A DNA stretch of 64,000 bases, taken from positions 1,553,163 through 1,617,162 of the forward strand of contig NZ_CP006270.1 in the NCBI RefSeq assembly GCF_000737575.1. Reading direction: 5' to 3'. Both the position numbers and the translations under genes were made by a program. Shown in pieces: positions 30,333-38,184 of this stretch. Under the pieces are notes generated by a model. That model was not told the DNA's origin and ran no database searches. It saw only the letters and a program-made list of their open reading frames with translations. The first letter of the stretch is position 1, and each line of letters begins with the position of its first letter. The DNA comes from Synechococcus sp. KORDI-49. Its GTDB lineage: Bacteria > Cyanobacteriota > Cyanobacteriia > PCC-6307 > Cyanobiaceae.

Positions 30333-31778
30333 GTGCCTTCCCCGAGCGAACCGAAACAGCGACGTCACCACCTGGGCTCCAGCCGCAGCATTCGCACACT
30401 GCTCGAGCGGCGCTGGCTGGTGGTGGTGCTGGCCCTCTCGCTCACGGGCCTCGGCGCTGCGATCACAGGACTGCTGTTCAAAGGAGGCATCAACCTGCTC
30501 CGGGACTGGCGCCTGGAACTGCTGAACGAACTGCCCGCCTGGGTGGTCCTGCCAGCGCTGGGGGGTGTCGGCGGCATGGTTTCCGGCTGGCTGGTGACCA
30601 ATTTCGCTCCAGCCGCCGGTGGCGCCGGCATCACTCACATCATGGGGTTTCTTCGCCACAAGTCAGTGCCCATGGGCCTGAGGGTGGGCCTTGTGAAACT
30701 GATCGCCGGCATCATCGCCATCGGCAGCGGCTTCCCACTCGGTCCTGAGGGACCTGCCGTGCAGATGGGTGGTTCCGTGGCCTGGCAGATGTCGCGTTGG
30801 TTGAAGGCTCCGGTCGCCTTCCGGCGCGTCATCGTCGCCGCCGGCGGTGGGGCCGGGATCGCAGCAGTGTTCAGCGCACCCATCGGCGGCTTCATCTACG
30901 CCATCGAGGAACTGCTTCACTCGGCCAGGCCGGTGGTGCTGCTGCTGGTGATCATCACCACCTTCTCCGCCGACACCTGGGCTGACGTTCTGGGGTACCT
31001 CGGTCTCAGTCCAGGCTCTGGAGGACTGGATGGAACGGTCGGATTTCAGGTGGAGCGCGAATTCTCTCCCCTCCTGAAATTTCTGCCGATCGATTTTCTG
31101 TATCTGATCGCTCTCGGTGCTGTGATCGGACTGCTTGCAGAGCTCTACTGCCGCTACGTGCTGACCCTGCAGCGCCATGGCAACAACTGGTTCGGCAGTC
31201 GTCTGATCCTGCGCATGTCCCTCAGCGGTCTGTTGCTGGGCGGGGTCTATGCCGCTCTCCCACAGACGTTCCACAACCCTGCGGAACTGCACCATCTGAT
31301 CGGGGAGGGAACCGCGGACGTGAGGCTGGCGCTCACCAGTTTCGTTGTGCTGTTCTTCAGCACAGGCCTGGCCGCGGCCTCGGGAGCCCCGGGGGGATTG
31401 TTCATGCCGATGCTGACCCTGGGTGGTGCGATCGGACTCGCCTGCGGTGGCGGCGTGGAAGCCCTGACGGGTCATGTCCCCACCACGTACGTGTTCGCCG
31501 GGATGGGGGCTTTCGTGGCGGGCTGTTCCCGCACACCGATCTCGGCGATGTTTCTGGCCTTCGCCCTCACCAAGGATCTGCTCATCCTCAGGCCGATCAT
31601 GGTGGCCTGCCTGATGAGCTTTCTCGTGGCCAGGCTCTTTGACCACCGCTCGATCTATGAGCGTCAGATGGGCATGGAACTGGATGCGGAGAACCGGATG
31701 CAGACCCGCCTGGATCGGCAACGACGGCCGTTCACCGCGCCACCGAGACCGGCATCCAACTCTGGAGACGAACGCTGA
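30333..31778 (+). CDS. CLC-type chloride channel/transporter
   Basis: A 481-aa membrane protein of the ClC family. Selectivity motifs are GSGFPLGPEGPAVQMG (with the gating glutamate in GPEGP), APIGGFIYAIEE and GGLFMPMLTLGGAIGLACGG. About 10-12 hydrophobic segments are visible. The cytoplasmic tail is short, with no CBS domains. It starts at GTG 30333. Its stop overlaps the proposed CTG start of the next gene (CTGA). It may serve Cl-/H+ exchange or acid tolerance; the substrate anion is inferred. Confidence 0.92.
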   Translation: MPSPSEPKQRRHHLGSSRSIRTLLERRWLVVVLALSLTGLGAAITGLLFKGGINLLRDWRLELLNELPAWVVLPALGGVGGMVSGWLVTNFAPAAGGAGITHIMGFLRHKSVPMGLRVGLVKLIAGIIAIGSGFPLGPEGPAVQMGGSVAWQMSRWLKAPVAFRRVIVAAGGGAGIAAVFSAPIGGFIYAIEELLHSARPVVLLLVIITTFSADTWADVLGYLGLSPGSGGLDGTVGFQVEREFSPLLKFLPIDFLYLIALGAVIGLLAELYCRYVLTLQRHGNNWFGSRLILRMSLSGLLLGGVYAALPQTFHNPAELHHLIGEGTADVRLALTSFVVLFFSTGLAAASGAPGGLFMPMLTLGGAIGLACGGGVEALTGHVPTTYVFAGMGAFVAGCSRTPISAMFLAFALTKDLLILRPIMVACLMSFLVARLFDHRSIYERQMGMELDAENRMQTRLDRQRRPFTAPPRPASNSGDER

Positions 31779-33418
31779 ACCAGGAAACGCTGCTGTTTGA
31801 GCGGGCAGTCCCGGACAGCGATGCCCTCAAGGCGGTGCTGGCCTTCCCGAGCACCTATTCGGTGGGCATCACAAGCCTCGGCTACCAGATCGTCTGGGCA
31901 ACCCTCGCCCAGCGTGCGGATGTGGACGTACGCCGGCTGTTCACGGACCAGTCGGATCCGTTGCATCGACACATCGATCTGTTCGGTCTGTCCCTCAGCT
32001 GGGAACTGGATGGACCCGTTCTGCCGGAGCTGCTGCGGAACCAGCGCATTCCGATCTGGGCTGTCGATCGAAGCGACGCCGACCCGATCGTGTTCGGCGG
32101 GGGGCCGGTGCTGACCGCCAACCCCGAACCCCTTGCACCGTTCTTCGATGCCGTGCTTCTGGGAGATGGCGAACTGCTGTTGCCCGCCTTCATCGATGCC
32201 CTGCAGAGCTGCCGGCAGGCTCCCAGAGCCGAACGACTGCGACGGCTGGCCGGAGTTCCGGGGGTCTACGTCCCGAGCTTGTATGCCCCGCGGTACCACC
32301 CGGATGGAACGCTGCTGAGCGTGGAGCCCATCGATCCGGATCTGCCATCGGTGATCGAGAAGCAGACCTGGCGAGGCAACACCCTGAGCCATTCCACGGT
32401 GATCACACCGGAAGCCGCCTGGCCGGACATCCACATGGTGGAGGTGGTGCGCAGTTGTCCGGAACTCTGCCGCTTCTGTCTGGCCAGCTACCTCACCCTG
32501 CCGTTCCGCAGCGCATCACTCGATGACGGACTCATCCCGGCGGTCGAGAAAGGCCTGGCGGCGACCCGGCGGCTTGGGCTGCTGGGAGCCTCGGTGACGC
32601 AGCACCCGCAGTTCGATGATCTGCTGACCTGGCTGGACCGGGACCGGTTCGATGACACCCGCGTCAGCGTCAGTTCCGTGCGGGCCGCCACGGTGACTCC
32701 GGAGCTGGCACGGATTCTGACGAAGCGGGGCAGTCGCTCCCTCACCATCGCCATCGAAAGCGGCAGCGAACGCATGCGGCAGGTGGTGAACAAGAAACTG
32801 AGCACCGAAGAGATCCATGCGGCCGCCAGTCACGCCAAACAAGGAGGGCTCCGTGGACTCAAGCTGTATGGAATGGTCGGACTGCCGACGGAGACGGACG
32901 ATGACGTGGACGCCACGGCCGACCTGCTGCTGACCCTGAAGAAGAACACGGCAGGGCTGCGCTTCACCCTCGGTGTCAGCACCTTCGTGCCCAAGGCCCA
33001 GACGCCGTTCCAGTGGCAGGGCGTCAGACCGGAAGCGGACAAACGACTGAAACGACTGGCGAAACGGTTGAAGCCGAAGGGAGTGGAGTTGCGACCGGAA
33101 AGTTACGGCTGGAGCGTGATCCAGGCCCTGCTGTCGCGCAGCGACCGGCGTCTTGCCCCGGTGATCGCCGCGGTTGGCGAAGCCAGGGAAAGCATGGGTG
33201 GCTGGAAAAAGGCCTACCGCGCCGCTCTCAATGGCGAACTGGAGCCCATGCCGGGCCACGCTTCACCGCCACCACCCCCCTGGCGGGATGTGATCGAGGA
33301 GAACTGGGACGCCTCACGAACCTTGCCCTGGACGCATCTCCGGAGTGCGATCACCCCGGAGCGTCTGCGGGAGCATCACGATCTGGCGCTGCCTCCAGAT
33401 CACCGTGCTCCCGGATGA
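31775..33418 (+). CDS. B12-binding-type radical SAM protein (TIGR03960-like), proposed CTG start
   Basis: A 547-aa protein. An N-terminal cobalamin-like domain (SVGITSLGYQIVWATLA, PIVFGGGPVLTANPEPLAPF) is followed by the radical SAM core with C-x3-C-x2-C in VRSCPELCRFCLASYL. Residues after 440 end in a Pro-rich tail. Conserved residues continue upstream of the first standard start (GTG 31835), as LNQETLLFERAVPDSDALKA. No ATG, GTG or TTG exists there. A CTG at 31775 overlaps the previous stop (CTGA) and has GGAG 7 nt upstream. I therefore place the start at 31775; 31835 is the conservative alternative. Substrate unknown. Confidence 0.8.
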   Translation: MNQETLLFERAVPDSDALKAVLAFPSTYSVGITSLGYQIVWATLAQRADVDVRRLFTDQSDPLHRHIDLFGLSLSWELDGPVLPELLRNQRIPIWAVDRSDADPIVFGGGPVLTANPEPLAPFFDAVLLGDGELLLPAFIDALQSCRQAPRAERLRRLAGVPGVYVPSLYAPRYHPDGTLLSVEPIDPDLPSVIEKQTWRGNTLSHSTVITPEAAWPDIHMVEVVRSCPELCRFCLASYLTLPFRSASLDDGLIPAVEKGLAATRRLGLLGASVTQHPQFDDLLTWLDRDRFDDTRVSVSSVRAATVTPELARILTKRGSRSLTIAIESGSERMRQVVNKKLSTEEIHAAASHAKQGGLRGLKLYGMVGLPTETDDDVDATADLLLTLKKNTAGLRFTLGVSTFVPKAQTPFQWQGVRPEADKRLKRLAKRLKPKGVELRPESYGWSVIQALLSRSDRRLAPVIAAVGEARESMGGWKKAYRAALNGELEPMPGHASPPPPPWRDVIEENWDASRTLPWTHLRSAITPERLREHHDLALPPDHRAPG

Positions 33419-35557: not shown

Positions 35558-36007
35558 ATGCTGAAGGCCCTGCGACGCCTGGCCGTCATCTGCCTCTGCG
35601 TCACGTTGAGCCTGGGTCTGTTGGCCCCGGCTTCTGTCAACGCCGCCGGCATCAAACCTGACGATCTGGCGGTGATCCGCCGTCAGGCCGCTGCGTTCGA
35701 AGCCACCAAGTCGCGTCTTCCGGATCTGGCCCGGTTGGTGAGCGCCGAGGACTGGGTCTTCACCCGCAACCTTCTGCATGGACCGATGCAGGAGGTGGGC
35801 CGCGAAATGCTCTACATCAATCAGCGTCTGGATCGGTCTGAGCGCAAGGATGCAGACAAGATCGCCCGCAAGCTGAAGGAAGCCCTGGCTGATCTTGATG
35901 AAGCGGCACGTCTGCAGGATGGATCCCGCCTTCAGCGCTCTTACAGCGCCCTGGCAGCCAGCTTCGACGCCTACTCCGATGTGATCCCGGCCGAGGCCTT
36001 CAGCTGA
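35558..36007 (+). CDS. psbQ: Photosystem II extrinsic protein Q (CyanoQ)
   Basis: A 149-aa lumenal protein that stabilises the oxygen-evolving side of photosystem II. Residues 1-29 form a signal peptide (MLKALRRLAVICLCVTLSLG), with likely cleavage after ASVNA. The mature part is an acidic-basic four-helix bundle (DDLAVIRRQAAAFEATKSRL, LADLDEAARLQDGSRLQRSY). No Cys follows the signal peptide at the expected lipobox position, so it may be soluble in the lumen and not a lipoprotein as in Synechocystis. Its stop is overlapped by the proposed CTG start of the FAD gene. Confidence 0.88.
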   Translation: MLKALRRLAVICLCVTLSLGLLAPASVNAAGIKPDDLAVIRRQAAAFEATKSRLPDLARLVSAEDWVFTRNLLHGPMQEVGREMLYINQRLDRSERKDADKIARKLKEALADLDEAARLQDGSRLQRSYSALAASFDAYSDVIPAEAFS

Positions 36008-37110
36008 ACCGAACGATTGCCGTTGTCGGTGCCGGCGTTGTCGGCGCCGGCGTGGCCTGGCACCTGGCACGACAAGGCCACCGGATCACACTGATCGATC
36101 CAGGCCTTGAAGAACCGCTCGAACGCACCAGCGGTGACGGGAACCATCTGACGGGAACCCGTGCATCGCTGGGCGTTCTCATGGGAAACGTGTTCCGGCG
36201 TTCGAGTGGTCGCGGTTGGCGGCTCCGGCAAAGAAGCATGGCGCTCTGGCCCTCGTGGGTCTGCGCACTGCAGCGGCAGGAACCGGAACTGATCCTGGAG
36301 ACACCGCTGCTGCAGCTCGCAGACGGTGATGAAACGCTCGGCCGCATGCGGAAGCTTGCCGACACCAGGTCAGCCTGCGGACTCTCCCTGCTTGAGCGGC
36401 ACCAGCTGCAGGCCGTCTGGCCAGGCGTCACCCATGGGGGACTGCTCTCGGAACGGGATGGACGCATCAACCCGCTGGTGCTGCTGAAAGCTCTGCGAAA
36501 GGCCCTCGCCGATCTGCCGGTGACTGGGGTGGCCGCTGCTGTGGAGACGATCCGTCGCGCCAAGCCCGGACAAGGAGGTGGCTGGCGGCTGGGCTGCCAT
36601 GACGGGAGTTGCCTGCATCAGGACACCGTCGTGATCTGCGCGGCGCTGAACAGTCCTGCTCTCCTGGAGCCACTGGGCCATCCACGCCCGATGCAGCCGG
36701 TGCTCGGACAGGCTCTGAGACTGGAGATCACATCCGGGCCGACGGACTGGATGAGCTGGCCAGCCGTCCTGGTGCATCGGGGATACAACCTGATTCCCGA
36801 TGGACACGGTCATGTGCTGCTCGGCGCCACCGTGGAACCCGGCGAGCGATCAGAGCCGGAACCGCTGCAACTGATGCGCCATCTCGAAGACTCAGCACCC
36901 GAGTGGCTGCGAAACGCCAAGGTGCTGGAACACTGGAGCGGACTGCGGGCCAGACCGGTGGAGCGACCGGCACCCTTGCTGGAACGGCTGGAACCAGGGC
37001 TGCTGCTGGCGACCGGCCACTACAGAAACGGTGTTCTGCTGACACCTGCCACCGCGGAATGGGTCGAACAGCACCTGGAAGATTCGGTATCAATGATTAC
37101 CAGGTCTTAA
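36004..37110 (+). CDS. FAD-dependent amino-acid/glycine oxidase-like oxidoreductase, proposed CTG start
   Basis: A 368-aa DAO-fold flavoprotein. The FAD-binding GxGxxG motif lies in residues 6-16 of the extended frame (AVVGAGVVGAG), upstream of the first standard start (GTG 36052), which would remove it. The only in-frame codons upstream are CTG 36004, overlapping the psbQ TGA, and ATT 36016. GAGG sits exactly 7 nt before the CTG. The C-terminal segment LLLATGHYRNGVLLTPATAE is typical of glycine/sarcosine oxidase-like enzymes (ThiO-like). Substrate unknown. Confidence 0.8.
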   Translation: MNRTIAVVGAGVVGAGVAWHLARQGHRITLIDPGLEEPLERTSGDGNHLTGTRASLGVLMGNVFRRSSGRGWRLRQRSMALWPSWVCALQRQEPELILETPLLQLADGDETLGRMRKLADTRSACGLSLLERHQLQAVWPGVTHGGLLSERDGRINPLVLLKALRKALADLPVTGVAAAVETIRRAKPGQGGGWRLGCHDGSCLHQDTVVICAALNSPALLEPLGHPRPMQPVLGQALRLEITSGPTDWMSWPAVLVHRGYNLIPDGHGHVLLGATVEPGERSEPEPLQLMRHLEDSAPEWLRNAKVLEHWSGLRARPVERPAPLLERLEPGLLLATGHYRNGVLLTPATAEWVEQHLEDSVSMITRS

Positions 37111-37173: not shown

Positions 37174-38184
37174 ATGCGTCGTTCCAACATCTTCAAAAGT
37201 CTTGCGGCCACTGCCGGCATCACCGCCACCGTGACGCTCGCCGGCTGTGGCGGCGGCACCGGTGGAGGAGGGGGTGACCAGGTCACAGGCAAGCTCAATG
37301 GCGCCGGTGCCTCGTTCCCCGCGGCCATTTATCAGCGCTGGTTCCAGGAGCTCCAGCCCGAGGGCGTGGCGGTCAACTACCAGTCGGTTGGCTCCGGCGC
37401 CGGAGTGCGGCAGTTCACGGCCGGAACCGTGGATTTCGGTGCATCCGACAAGCCGATGAAAAAGGATGAGATCGCCAAGGTGAGCCGTGGTGTGCTGCAG
37501 ATCCCGATGACGGCCGGAGCCATCGCAGTCGCTTACAACCTCGACGGATGCGATCTGAAACTGAGCCAGGACCAGCTGGCCGGAATCTTCCTCGGCAAGG
37601 TCAAGAACTTCAACGAGCTGGGCTGCGCTGATCAGGCGATCACCGTGGTCCGTCGCTCCGACGGTTCCGGCACCACGTACAACTTCACCAAGCATCTCTC
37701 CGCCATCAACGAGGAGTGGAAGACCAAGATCGGTGCTGCGAAGGCCGTCAAATGGCCCACGGGCGTCGGCTCGAAAGGCAATGAAGGCGTTGCCGCCCAG
37801 CTGAATCAGATCAAGGGTGGAGTGGGTTATGTGGAAGCCGCCTATGTGAAGGGCAAGCTTCAGGCCGCCGCCGTCACCAATGCCTCCGGTGAGCAGGTGA
37901 AGCCCACCAATGAAACGGAAAGCGCCGCTCTCGACTCCATCGACATCGGCCCGGAGCTCATCGGTGGCAACCCGAATCCACCTCAGGGTTACCCGATCGT
38001 TACCTTCACCTGGGTGCTGGCGTACGAAACGGGCAACGGCGGCAAGACCGCCGCTCTGAAGAAGGCCTTCGAGTTCATGCTGTCCGAGAAAGCTCAGGCA
38101 CAGGCCCCTGATCTCGGCTACGTCACCCTGCCCAAGGGTGTGGTGGAGAAGTCCCTGGCTGCGGTCGAGAAAATCACTGAGTGA
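37174..38184 (+). CDS. pstS: Phosphate-binding lipoprotein PstS
   Basis: Periplasmic phosphate receptor for the Pst ABC transporter. The 336-aa protein has a lipoprotein signal (LAATAGITATVTLAGC, lipobox LAGC at C25), a Gly-rich linker, and the ligand-binding segments GAGASFPAAIYQRWF, VGSGAGVRQF and RRSDGSGTTYNFTKHL. The transporter genes are not in the window, so pstS is a stand-alone copy, as is common in marine Synechococcus, which often carries several. A possible Pho box precedes it. It converges on dnaK through a shared terminator. Confidence 0.94.
   Translation: MRRSNIFKSLAATAGITATVTLAGCGGGTGGGGGDQVTGKLNGAGASFPAAIYQRWFQELQPEGVAVNYQSVGSGAGVRQFTAGTVDFGASDKPMKKDEIAKVSRGVLQIPMTAGAIAVAYNLDGCDLKLSQDQLAGIFLGKVKNFNELGCADQAITVVRRSDGSGTTYNFTKHLSAINEEWKTKIGAAKAVKWPTGVGSKGNEGVAAQLNQIKGGVGYVEAAYVKGKLQAAAVTNASGEQVKPTNETESAALDSIDIGPELIGGNPNPPQGYPIVTFTWVLAYETGNGGKTAALKKAFEFMLSEKAQAQAPDLGYVTLPKGVVEKSLAAVEKITE

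Follow-up and report, generated by a model that had tools for sequence, protein, structure and literature searches.

Poor start codons can be conserved where they hold expression low, as in infC and pcnB, whose AUU starts are read out through IF3. CTG starts are likewise known in bacteria, and the CTG-started plasmid gene of E. coli is RepFIB repA. CUG is reported to make up 0.024% of bacterial initiation codons and to reach 0.86% of the efficiency of AUG, compared with 58.4% for GUG and 29.8% for UUG (PMC11497404), and 2 of 61,358 ancestral AUG starts in 36 genome triplets had switched to CUG (PMC5622118). Zero reporter activity from CUG in chloroplasts or E. coli (PMC9845219) counts against a CTG start. 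The bacterial genes cited as CTG-started in PMC5960689 are the E. coli plasmid gene and Deinococcus deserti rpsL. A further relevant system is termination–reinitiation at ATGA junctions, for which PMC6728339 describes a 4-nt stop/start overlap and a Shine–Dalgarno (SD) sequence inside the upstream gene.

The junction examined here, between psbQ and a flavoenzyme gene, lies in a 64,000-nt stretch (the window) of the 2.59-Mb, one-contig genome of Synechococcus sp. KORDI-49, and it resembles each of these systems in part. It shares the 4-nt overlap and the SD sequence in the upstream gene with the ATGA junctions, but its start would be CTG, which is absent from the accessible part of that text, and the codon outlasts the overlap. 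With infC and pcnB it has in common a conserved poor start codon that would go with low expression, but the codon is CUG, and the infC frame of this genome opens with ATG. The E. coli plasmid gene and D. deserti rpsL are also bacterial CTG starts, but they are single genes, whereas CTG is retained here in three, at the level of a genus or family, and the codon is apparently selected. We recognised no prior description of conserved CTG starts in picocyanobacteria in the open-licence literature, outside which most subscription papers lie; the new part is the retention of CTG across many species, CTG starts singly being already known. Because CTG is retained in three genes, in one of them family-wide, the question of whether a poor start codon can be selected for becomes testable in culturable cyanobacteria.

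A sequence-only reading of the window had proposed that the oxidoreductase gene starts at a CTG that overlaps the psbQ stop as CTGA, with GAGG 7 nt upstream, and this layout is present in the sequence. The psbQ stop (TGA, 36005–36007) has two bases in common with the CTG at 36004, which lies in the oxidoreductase frame, whose own stop is at 37110 (Table 1). The statement that the GxGxxG motif lies 5′ of the first standard start also held, as no ATG, GTG or TTG occurs in this frame from the nearest upstream in-frame stop, 105 nt before the CTG, to GTG 36052. The same layout, as had been noted, recurs at 31775, where the CTG of a radical-SAM gene follows GGAG by 7 nt and overlaps TGA 31776–31778, the stop of a chloride-channel-type ORF.

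Table 1. Features of the psbQ–oxidoreductase junction and of the other genes with a putative CTG start (window positions unless prefixed G000, this genome).
Feature	Position	Strand	Basis or remark
psbQ (photosystem II PsbQ)	35558–36007	+	TIGR03042, 179.4 bits, cut-off 106.9; PF05757
GAGG, Shine–Dalgarno-like, inside psbQ, 7 nt 5′ of CTG	35993–35996	+	sequence; SD-like 4-mer in 30/30 genus loci
CTG, very likely start codon of the FAD oxidoreductase	36004–36006	+	CTGA in 30/30 genus loci; codon-column test
FAD-dependent oxidoreductase, DAO family, ThiO/glycine-oxidase-like, 368 aa	36004–37110	+	PF01266; TIGR02352; PDB glycine oxidases
ATT, alternative start proposed earlier, rejected	36016–36018	+	ATT in 9/30 loci, ATC in 3, GTT/GTC in 18
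GxGxxG (GAGVVG) dinucleotide-binding motif of the oxidoreductase	36028–36045	+	translation
GTG, first standard start of the oxidoreductase	36052–36054	+	3′ of GxGxxG; would cost beta-1 and GxGxxG
Tryptic peptide TIAVVGAGVVGAGVAWHLAR, this genome			expected of the CTG-started oxidoreductase; would discriminate against a GTG 36052 start
GGAG, 7 nt 5′ of CTG 31775	31764–31767	+	sequence
Radical-SAM protein (TIGR03960-like, under its cut-off), putative CTG start	31775–33418	+	95/97 distinct orthologs CTG
Chorismate-lyase-like gene (PF01947), third putative CTG start	G000:1463939		GGAGG 6 nt before CTGA

The CTG-started oxidoreductase matches the DAO profile (PF01266) with an E value of 3e-53, residues 5–354 aligning with profile positions 2–350 of 353, and its score of 182 bits against a curated cut-off of 27.9 places it in that family. 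Since profile position 2 aligns at residue 5, the CTG-started N-terminus has about the length that the family needs. The protein is like the ThiO glycine oxidases (TIGR02352; PDB 1ryi, 1ng3 and 4ysh) in having the DAO fold with an N-terminal GxGxxG, but differs from them in scoring 137.1 bits, under the curated cut-off of 250.8 for TIGR02352 membership. Among 78 genomes searched, including our own, 77 gave a match, and junction DNA was read for the best 30 of these 77, all of which belong to the genus and include the genome under study. The 4-nt CTGA overlap was found in all 30 loci and an in-frame standard start upstream in none, leaving no usable ATG, GTG or TTG for the conserved N-terminus. 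A sequencing error that hides an ATG, which had been named as a possible refutation, is not credible given that 30 genomes agree on CTG. Judging from these comparisons, CTG 36004 is very likely the start of the oxidoreductase, as the sequence-only reading had it. Two further members of the genus have CTG (L064, from genome G008) and TTG without the overlap (L110).

Outside the genus, the start of the oxidoreductase is less uniform than that of the radical-SAM gene. Twenty further loci were fetched, 14 of them from the family, and in these 14 the start position holds CTG in six (L064, L065, L067, L069, L071 and L072), ATG in two (L068 and L074), and CTA, CTC and TTA in L063, L070 and L066, respectively, codons that are not expected to initiate; L076 has an ATG 9 nt upstream of the site, and L073 and L075 have longer N-termini. 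Among the best 80 of 100 named loci, ATG was found at the oxidoreductase start also in L170 and L177, and many of the records named as Cyanobium, Vulcanococcus or lake bins have a longer N-terminus, in a group that lacks a clear start. As the named loci and the loci from the genome search probably include the same genomes, counts from the separate sets are not additive. In L063 (genome G035) the psbQ stop is TAA, giving a CTAA overlap, and the oxidoreductase frame reads CTA, ATC right after an in-frame TAG; this junction is either a natural start variant or an artefact of assembly, the genome being fragmented. In L139, L146, L147 and L151 the psbQ stop and the oxidoreductase are in different frames (CCTGAA), and standard starts occur only within 12 nt of GxGxxG. 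A record titled Bifidobacterium breve (L148, CALPNT020000020.1) holds a cyanobacterial radical-SAM/psbQ/oxidoreductase locus and is probably a mislabelled or contaminated bin.

The radical-SAM gene is the stronger case of a CTG start. In 30 loci, comprising 29 from the genus with our own and one from another genus (L058), the codon is CTG in 29 and TTG in L058, and it is CTG in all of 13 further family loci. The best 80 of the 100 named loci gave 79 CTG and one ATG at the same codon (L134); one of the two scan patterns used for L103–L182 spans residues 2–9 and favours conserved N-termini, with codon 1 outside the pattern. After removal of duplicates, 97 distinct orthologs comprised 95 with CTG, one with ATG and one with TTG. 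In L126, L133, L141 and L142 an in-frame stop ends immediately 5′ of the CTG, so initiation is not possible upstream in these four. In all seven class-level outgroup loci the N-terminus differs, and a standard start lies a few codons 5′ of the site. In this genome the next standard start of the radical-SAM gene, as of the chorismate-lyase-like gene described below, is at about codons 21–22, and the Pfam domains begin at residues 51 and 39, respectively; because a later standard start would keep these domains, the case for CTG in both genes is one of conservation alone.

Coupling to the upstream gene was compared across the three genes. At the oxidoreductase, the overlap is accompanied by an SD-like 4-mer inside psbQ in every one of the 30 genus loci; in the radical-SAM gene the genus shows the overlap in 25 of 29 loci, with an SD sequence in 24 of those 25; and in the chorismate-lyase-like gene the overlap was found in 22 of 25 and the SD sequence in 25 of 25. 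These arrangements suggest that the CTG starts are probably coupled to the upstream gene within the genus. Coupling is not needed for the radical-SAM gene, since no ORF of 100 or more codons shares the stop in 55 of the 78 named loci for which upstream DNA was available (the other 23 show the overlap), and these 55 carry CTG without exception, with an SD-like 4-mer present in 2 and absent in 53. CTG is kept where the overlap is lost, indicating that the codon outlives coupling in this gene. For the oxidoreductase, 64 adjacent pairs with psbQ include 16 CTGA and one CTAA at the 23-nt distance seen in the genus. The other 47 pairs are in frame in 20 cases (18 CTGA, 1 TTGA and 1 GTGA) and out of frame in 27, and 5 of these 18 CTGA pairs also have a later standard start. 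Since 20 of 47 is little more than the one third expected by chance, the position of the psbQ stop hardly supports coupling outside the 23-nt class, and the longer N-termini were dropped as evidence for it. In L065, L067, L069, L071 and L072 the CTG is kept and psbQ was not found in 1.9 kb of the locus. Beyond the genus and some relatives of lower GC, the oxidoreductase shows no clear coupling pattern. Of the proposal that this lineage tolerates CTG starts in coupled genes, the lineage property stands; "tolerance" does not fit a codon that seems to be retained rather than drifting, and "coupled" does not fit the 55 radical-SAM loci without an overlap.

CTGA at a junction is in itself unremarkable. 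A comparison between 864 kb of this genome and about 800 kb from a single relative gave 556 coding ortholog pairs, and among the in-frame overlaps of these genes with a downstream gene CTGA was the commonest (53, against 33 ATGA, 15 GTGA and 7 TTGA); of these 53, 35 are followed by a standard start within five codons, and 19 are preceded by one in the same frame. The CTGA count by itself was rejected as evidence, and what exceeds chance is the conservation in 30 of 30 genus loci together with the codon-column test described below. A simple screen for conserved N-termini was swamped by shadow frames, and a codon-position mismatch filter was used instead. Screening in this way for genes whose N-terminal conservation extends 5′ of the first standard start gave 34 candidates, of which three, ranking 4th, 18th and 21st, were accepted by eye; the remaining 31 were dismissed by eye alone, as shadow frames or untranslated leaders. 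CTG starts with an in-frame standard start upstream are invisible to this screen, which is weak, has low power and may miss cases, so that 3 of 556 gives an order of magnitude only. The third accepted gene, the chorismate-lyase-like one, has CTG in all 25 strong matches from 30 genus genomes, our own included, and it disposes of the objection that no other CTGA junctions might exist. Widespread use of CTG starts does not follow from three acceptances among 556 pairs.

Other candidates were rejected. In a citrate-transporter-like gene (G000:1229496; Pfam), an ATG lies 9 nt 5′ of the CTGA and the Leu codon varies, being CTG in 19 sequences, TTG in 6 and TTA in 1; on account of this drift and of the ATG it was taken as a control for an internal CTG. 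In a 4HBT thioesterase-like gene (G000:1366980, L193:13818), this genome has a conserved motif with no standard start before it and CTG candidates there, but most of the relatives shown have ATG or GTG at the site; the copy in L299 may have a CTG start too. A 981-aa ORF (G000:1455436) has CTGA, with poor conservation after it.

For each gene, codon 1 was set against every other invariant Leu column in its own alignment, so that one tree underlies both, in a test that yields no formal probability because the orthologs are related and not independent. In the radical-SAM gene the CTG fraction at codon 1 was 0.99, and 0 of 57 other invariant Leu columns were as fixed for CTG; in the chorismate-lyase-like gene it was 1.00, matched by 0 of 26 columns. 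In the oxidoreductase, for which 40 of 81 distinct orthologs had Leu as the aligned first codon and were used (41 with another N-terminus being dropped), it was 0.95 (38 CTG, 1 TTG and 1 CTC), matched by 0 of 23 columns; a set of hand-picked CTG-starting named loci, from which the TTG of L110 was left out, gave 1.00 and 0 of 29. The internal-CTG control behaved normally, with 22 of 98 Leu columns reaching the value of its CTG column. Nine relatives with a locus GC of 0.36–0.51 all have CTG at codon 1 of the radical-SAM gene, and have CTG at Leu-6, Leu-7, Leu-18 and Leu-22 in 2, 1, 1 and 3 cases, respectively. Standard starts replace CTG at the site in L134 (ATG, radical-SAM), L058 (TTG, radical-SAM) and L110 (TTG, oxidoreductase). 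The codon is accordingly kept in the manner of a start rather than of a Leu codon, the contrary cases being the CTA, CTC and TTA of L063, L070 and L066.

The comparisons show conservation of the codon and its position, the lack of a usable upstream standard start and, in some radical-SAM orthologs, stops directly before CTG; initiation on the CUG, its amino acid, its coupling to the upstream gene and a benefit of low output are inferred. Translation of the oxidoreductase would begin at CUG 36004, where initiator fMet-tRNA is presumably used. In the genus, a ribosome that has terminated on the psbQ UGA, or a new 30S subunit held by GAGG, would reinitiate one base back on the CUG, a step suggested by the CTGA overlap and the SD sequence. 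As CUG is a very weak start, the output of the enzyme would be a small fraction of that of its photosystem II neighbour. Purifying selection would stop CTG from becoming TTG, GTG or ATG in the oxidoreductase, radical-SAM and chorismate-lyase-like genes, whose CTG starts seem old, genuine and retained rather than drifting. Selection for low output is the simplest reading of this retention, and we consider it fairly probable that these CTG starts are genuine and old and that selection maintains them for their weakness. A more tentative possibility, to which we give less than even credence, is that picocyanobacteria have a small set of CUG starts in which the weak codon itself is a regulatory element that throttles initiation, perhaps sensing initiation-factor level or growth state, and that it has persisted in the radical-SAM gene, whether or not the overlap is present, since Synechococcus, Cyanobium and Prochlorococcus last shared an ancestor.

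Alternatively, CTG could be the start but a frozen accident that coupled genes tolerate, its weakness not being under selection. Escape from CTG is indeed limited in overlapping pairs, where A or G at the base concerned alters the C-terminal residue of the upstream gene product. TTG, however, is silent for both products: a change of the last psbQ codon from AGC to AGT or from AAC to AAT leaves PsbQ unchanged and would give the oxidoreductase TTG, a better start. Yet TTG is found among the start-aligned loci only in L058 and L110, and in the 30 genus loci the last psbQ codon is AGC in 24, AAC in 6 and never AGT or AAT; elsewhere in these psbQ genes AGC:AGT is 156:38 and AAC:AAT is 75:45. The persistence of CTG in the radical-SAM loci without overlap and in the nine lower-GC relatives also argues against an accident, and we regard this explanation as unlikely, although it is the best placed of the alternatives.

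Much less probable is a true start at GTG 36052 or at some other standard codon inside the frame, the upstream conservation then being an RNA constraint. Gene callers restricted to ATG, GTG and TTG would choose GTG 36052, and would truncate the three CTG-started proteins; the flavoenzyme would thereby lose its FAD-binding motif. Later standard starts in the other two genes would spare their Pfam domains, and 12 of the 30 genus loci have a GTG six bases 5′ of GxGxxG. In the oxidoreductase, however, the DAO profile begins well before GTG 36052; a standard codon occurs at that position in 1 of 30 loci, namely this genome only; 9 of 30 lack any such codon within 120 nt of the CTG; and the residues between the CTG and the GTG lie 3′ of the psbQ stop, so that psbQ coding cannot explain their conservation. 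ATT is a known rare start codon, and a start at ATT 36016 (M-A-V-V-G-A-G), which had been put forward for checking, would leave the motif intact, but it has next to no likelihood, since the position varies where CTG is invariant (Table 1) and lies 19 nt from GAGG. Equally remote is a −1 ribosomal frameshift near the psbQ stop, yielding a PsbQ–oxidoreductase fusion in which CTG is an ordinary Leu codon: the frame is open for 105 nt 5′ of the CTG in this genome, but 22 of 30 genus loci have an in-frame stop 12 nt before it, no slippery heptamer was noticed by eye at the junction, five family loci keep CTG with no psbQ found nearby, and codon 1 lacks the drift of a Leu codon.

With a very likely start at CTG 36004, the initiation machinery of this genome is of interest. 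A GGG/CCC anticodon stem marks initiator tRNAs, and one Met tRNA (L379) with this stem was present among the 33 of 43 tRNA matches looked at, so a normal initiator seems to be present. The infC gene has no rare start, its ATG lying directly after an upstream stop, and we know of no autoregulation of the CUG-start genes described here. No special CUG machinery was found among these 33 tRNA matches and in the infC frame.

Two minor features of the region were noted. A hairpin was predicted at window positions 36027–36055, over the GxGxxG codons and starting about 23 nt 3′ of the CTG, from a consensus of 14 of the 30 orthologs; it was rejected as a recoding signal, because double changes occurred in just 2 of 24 pairs. 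The flavoenzyme gene is followed in the window by a solute-binding-protein gene (37174–38184, PBP superfamily), and a second stretch of this genome (G000:518603–518796) is 72% identical to part of that gene.
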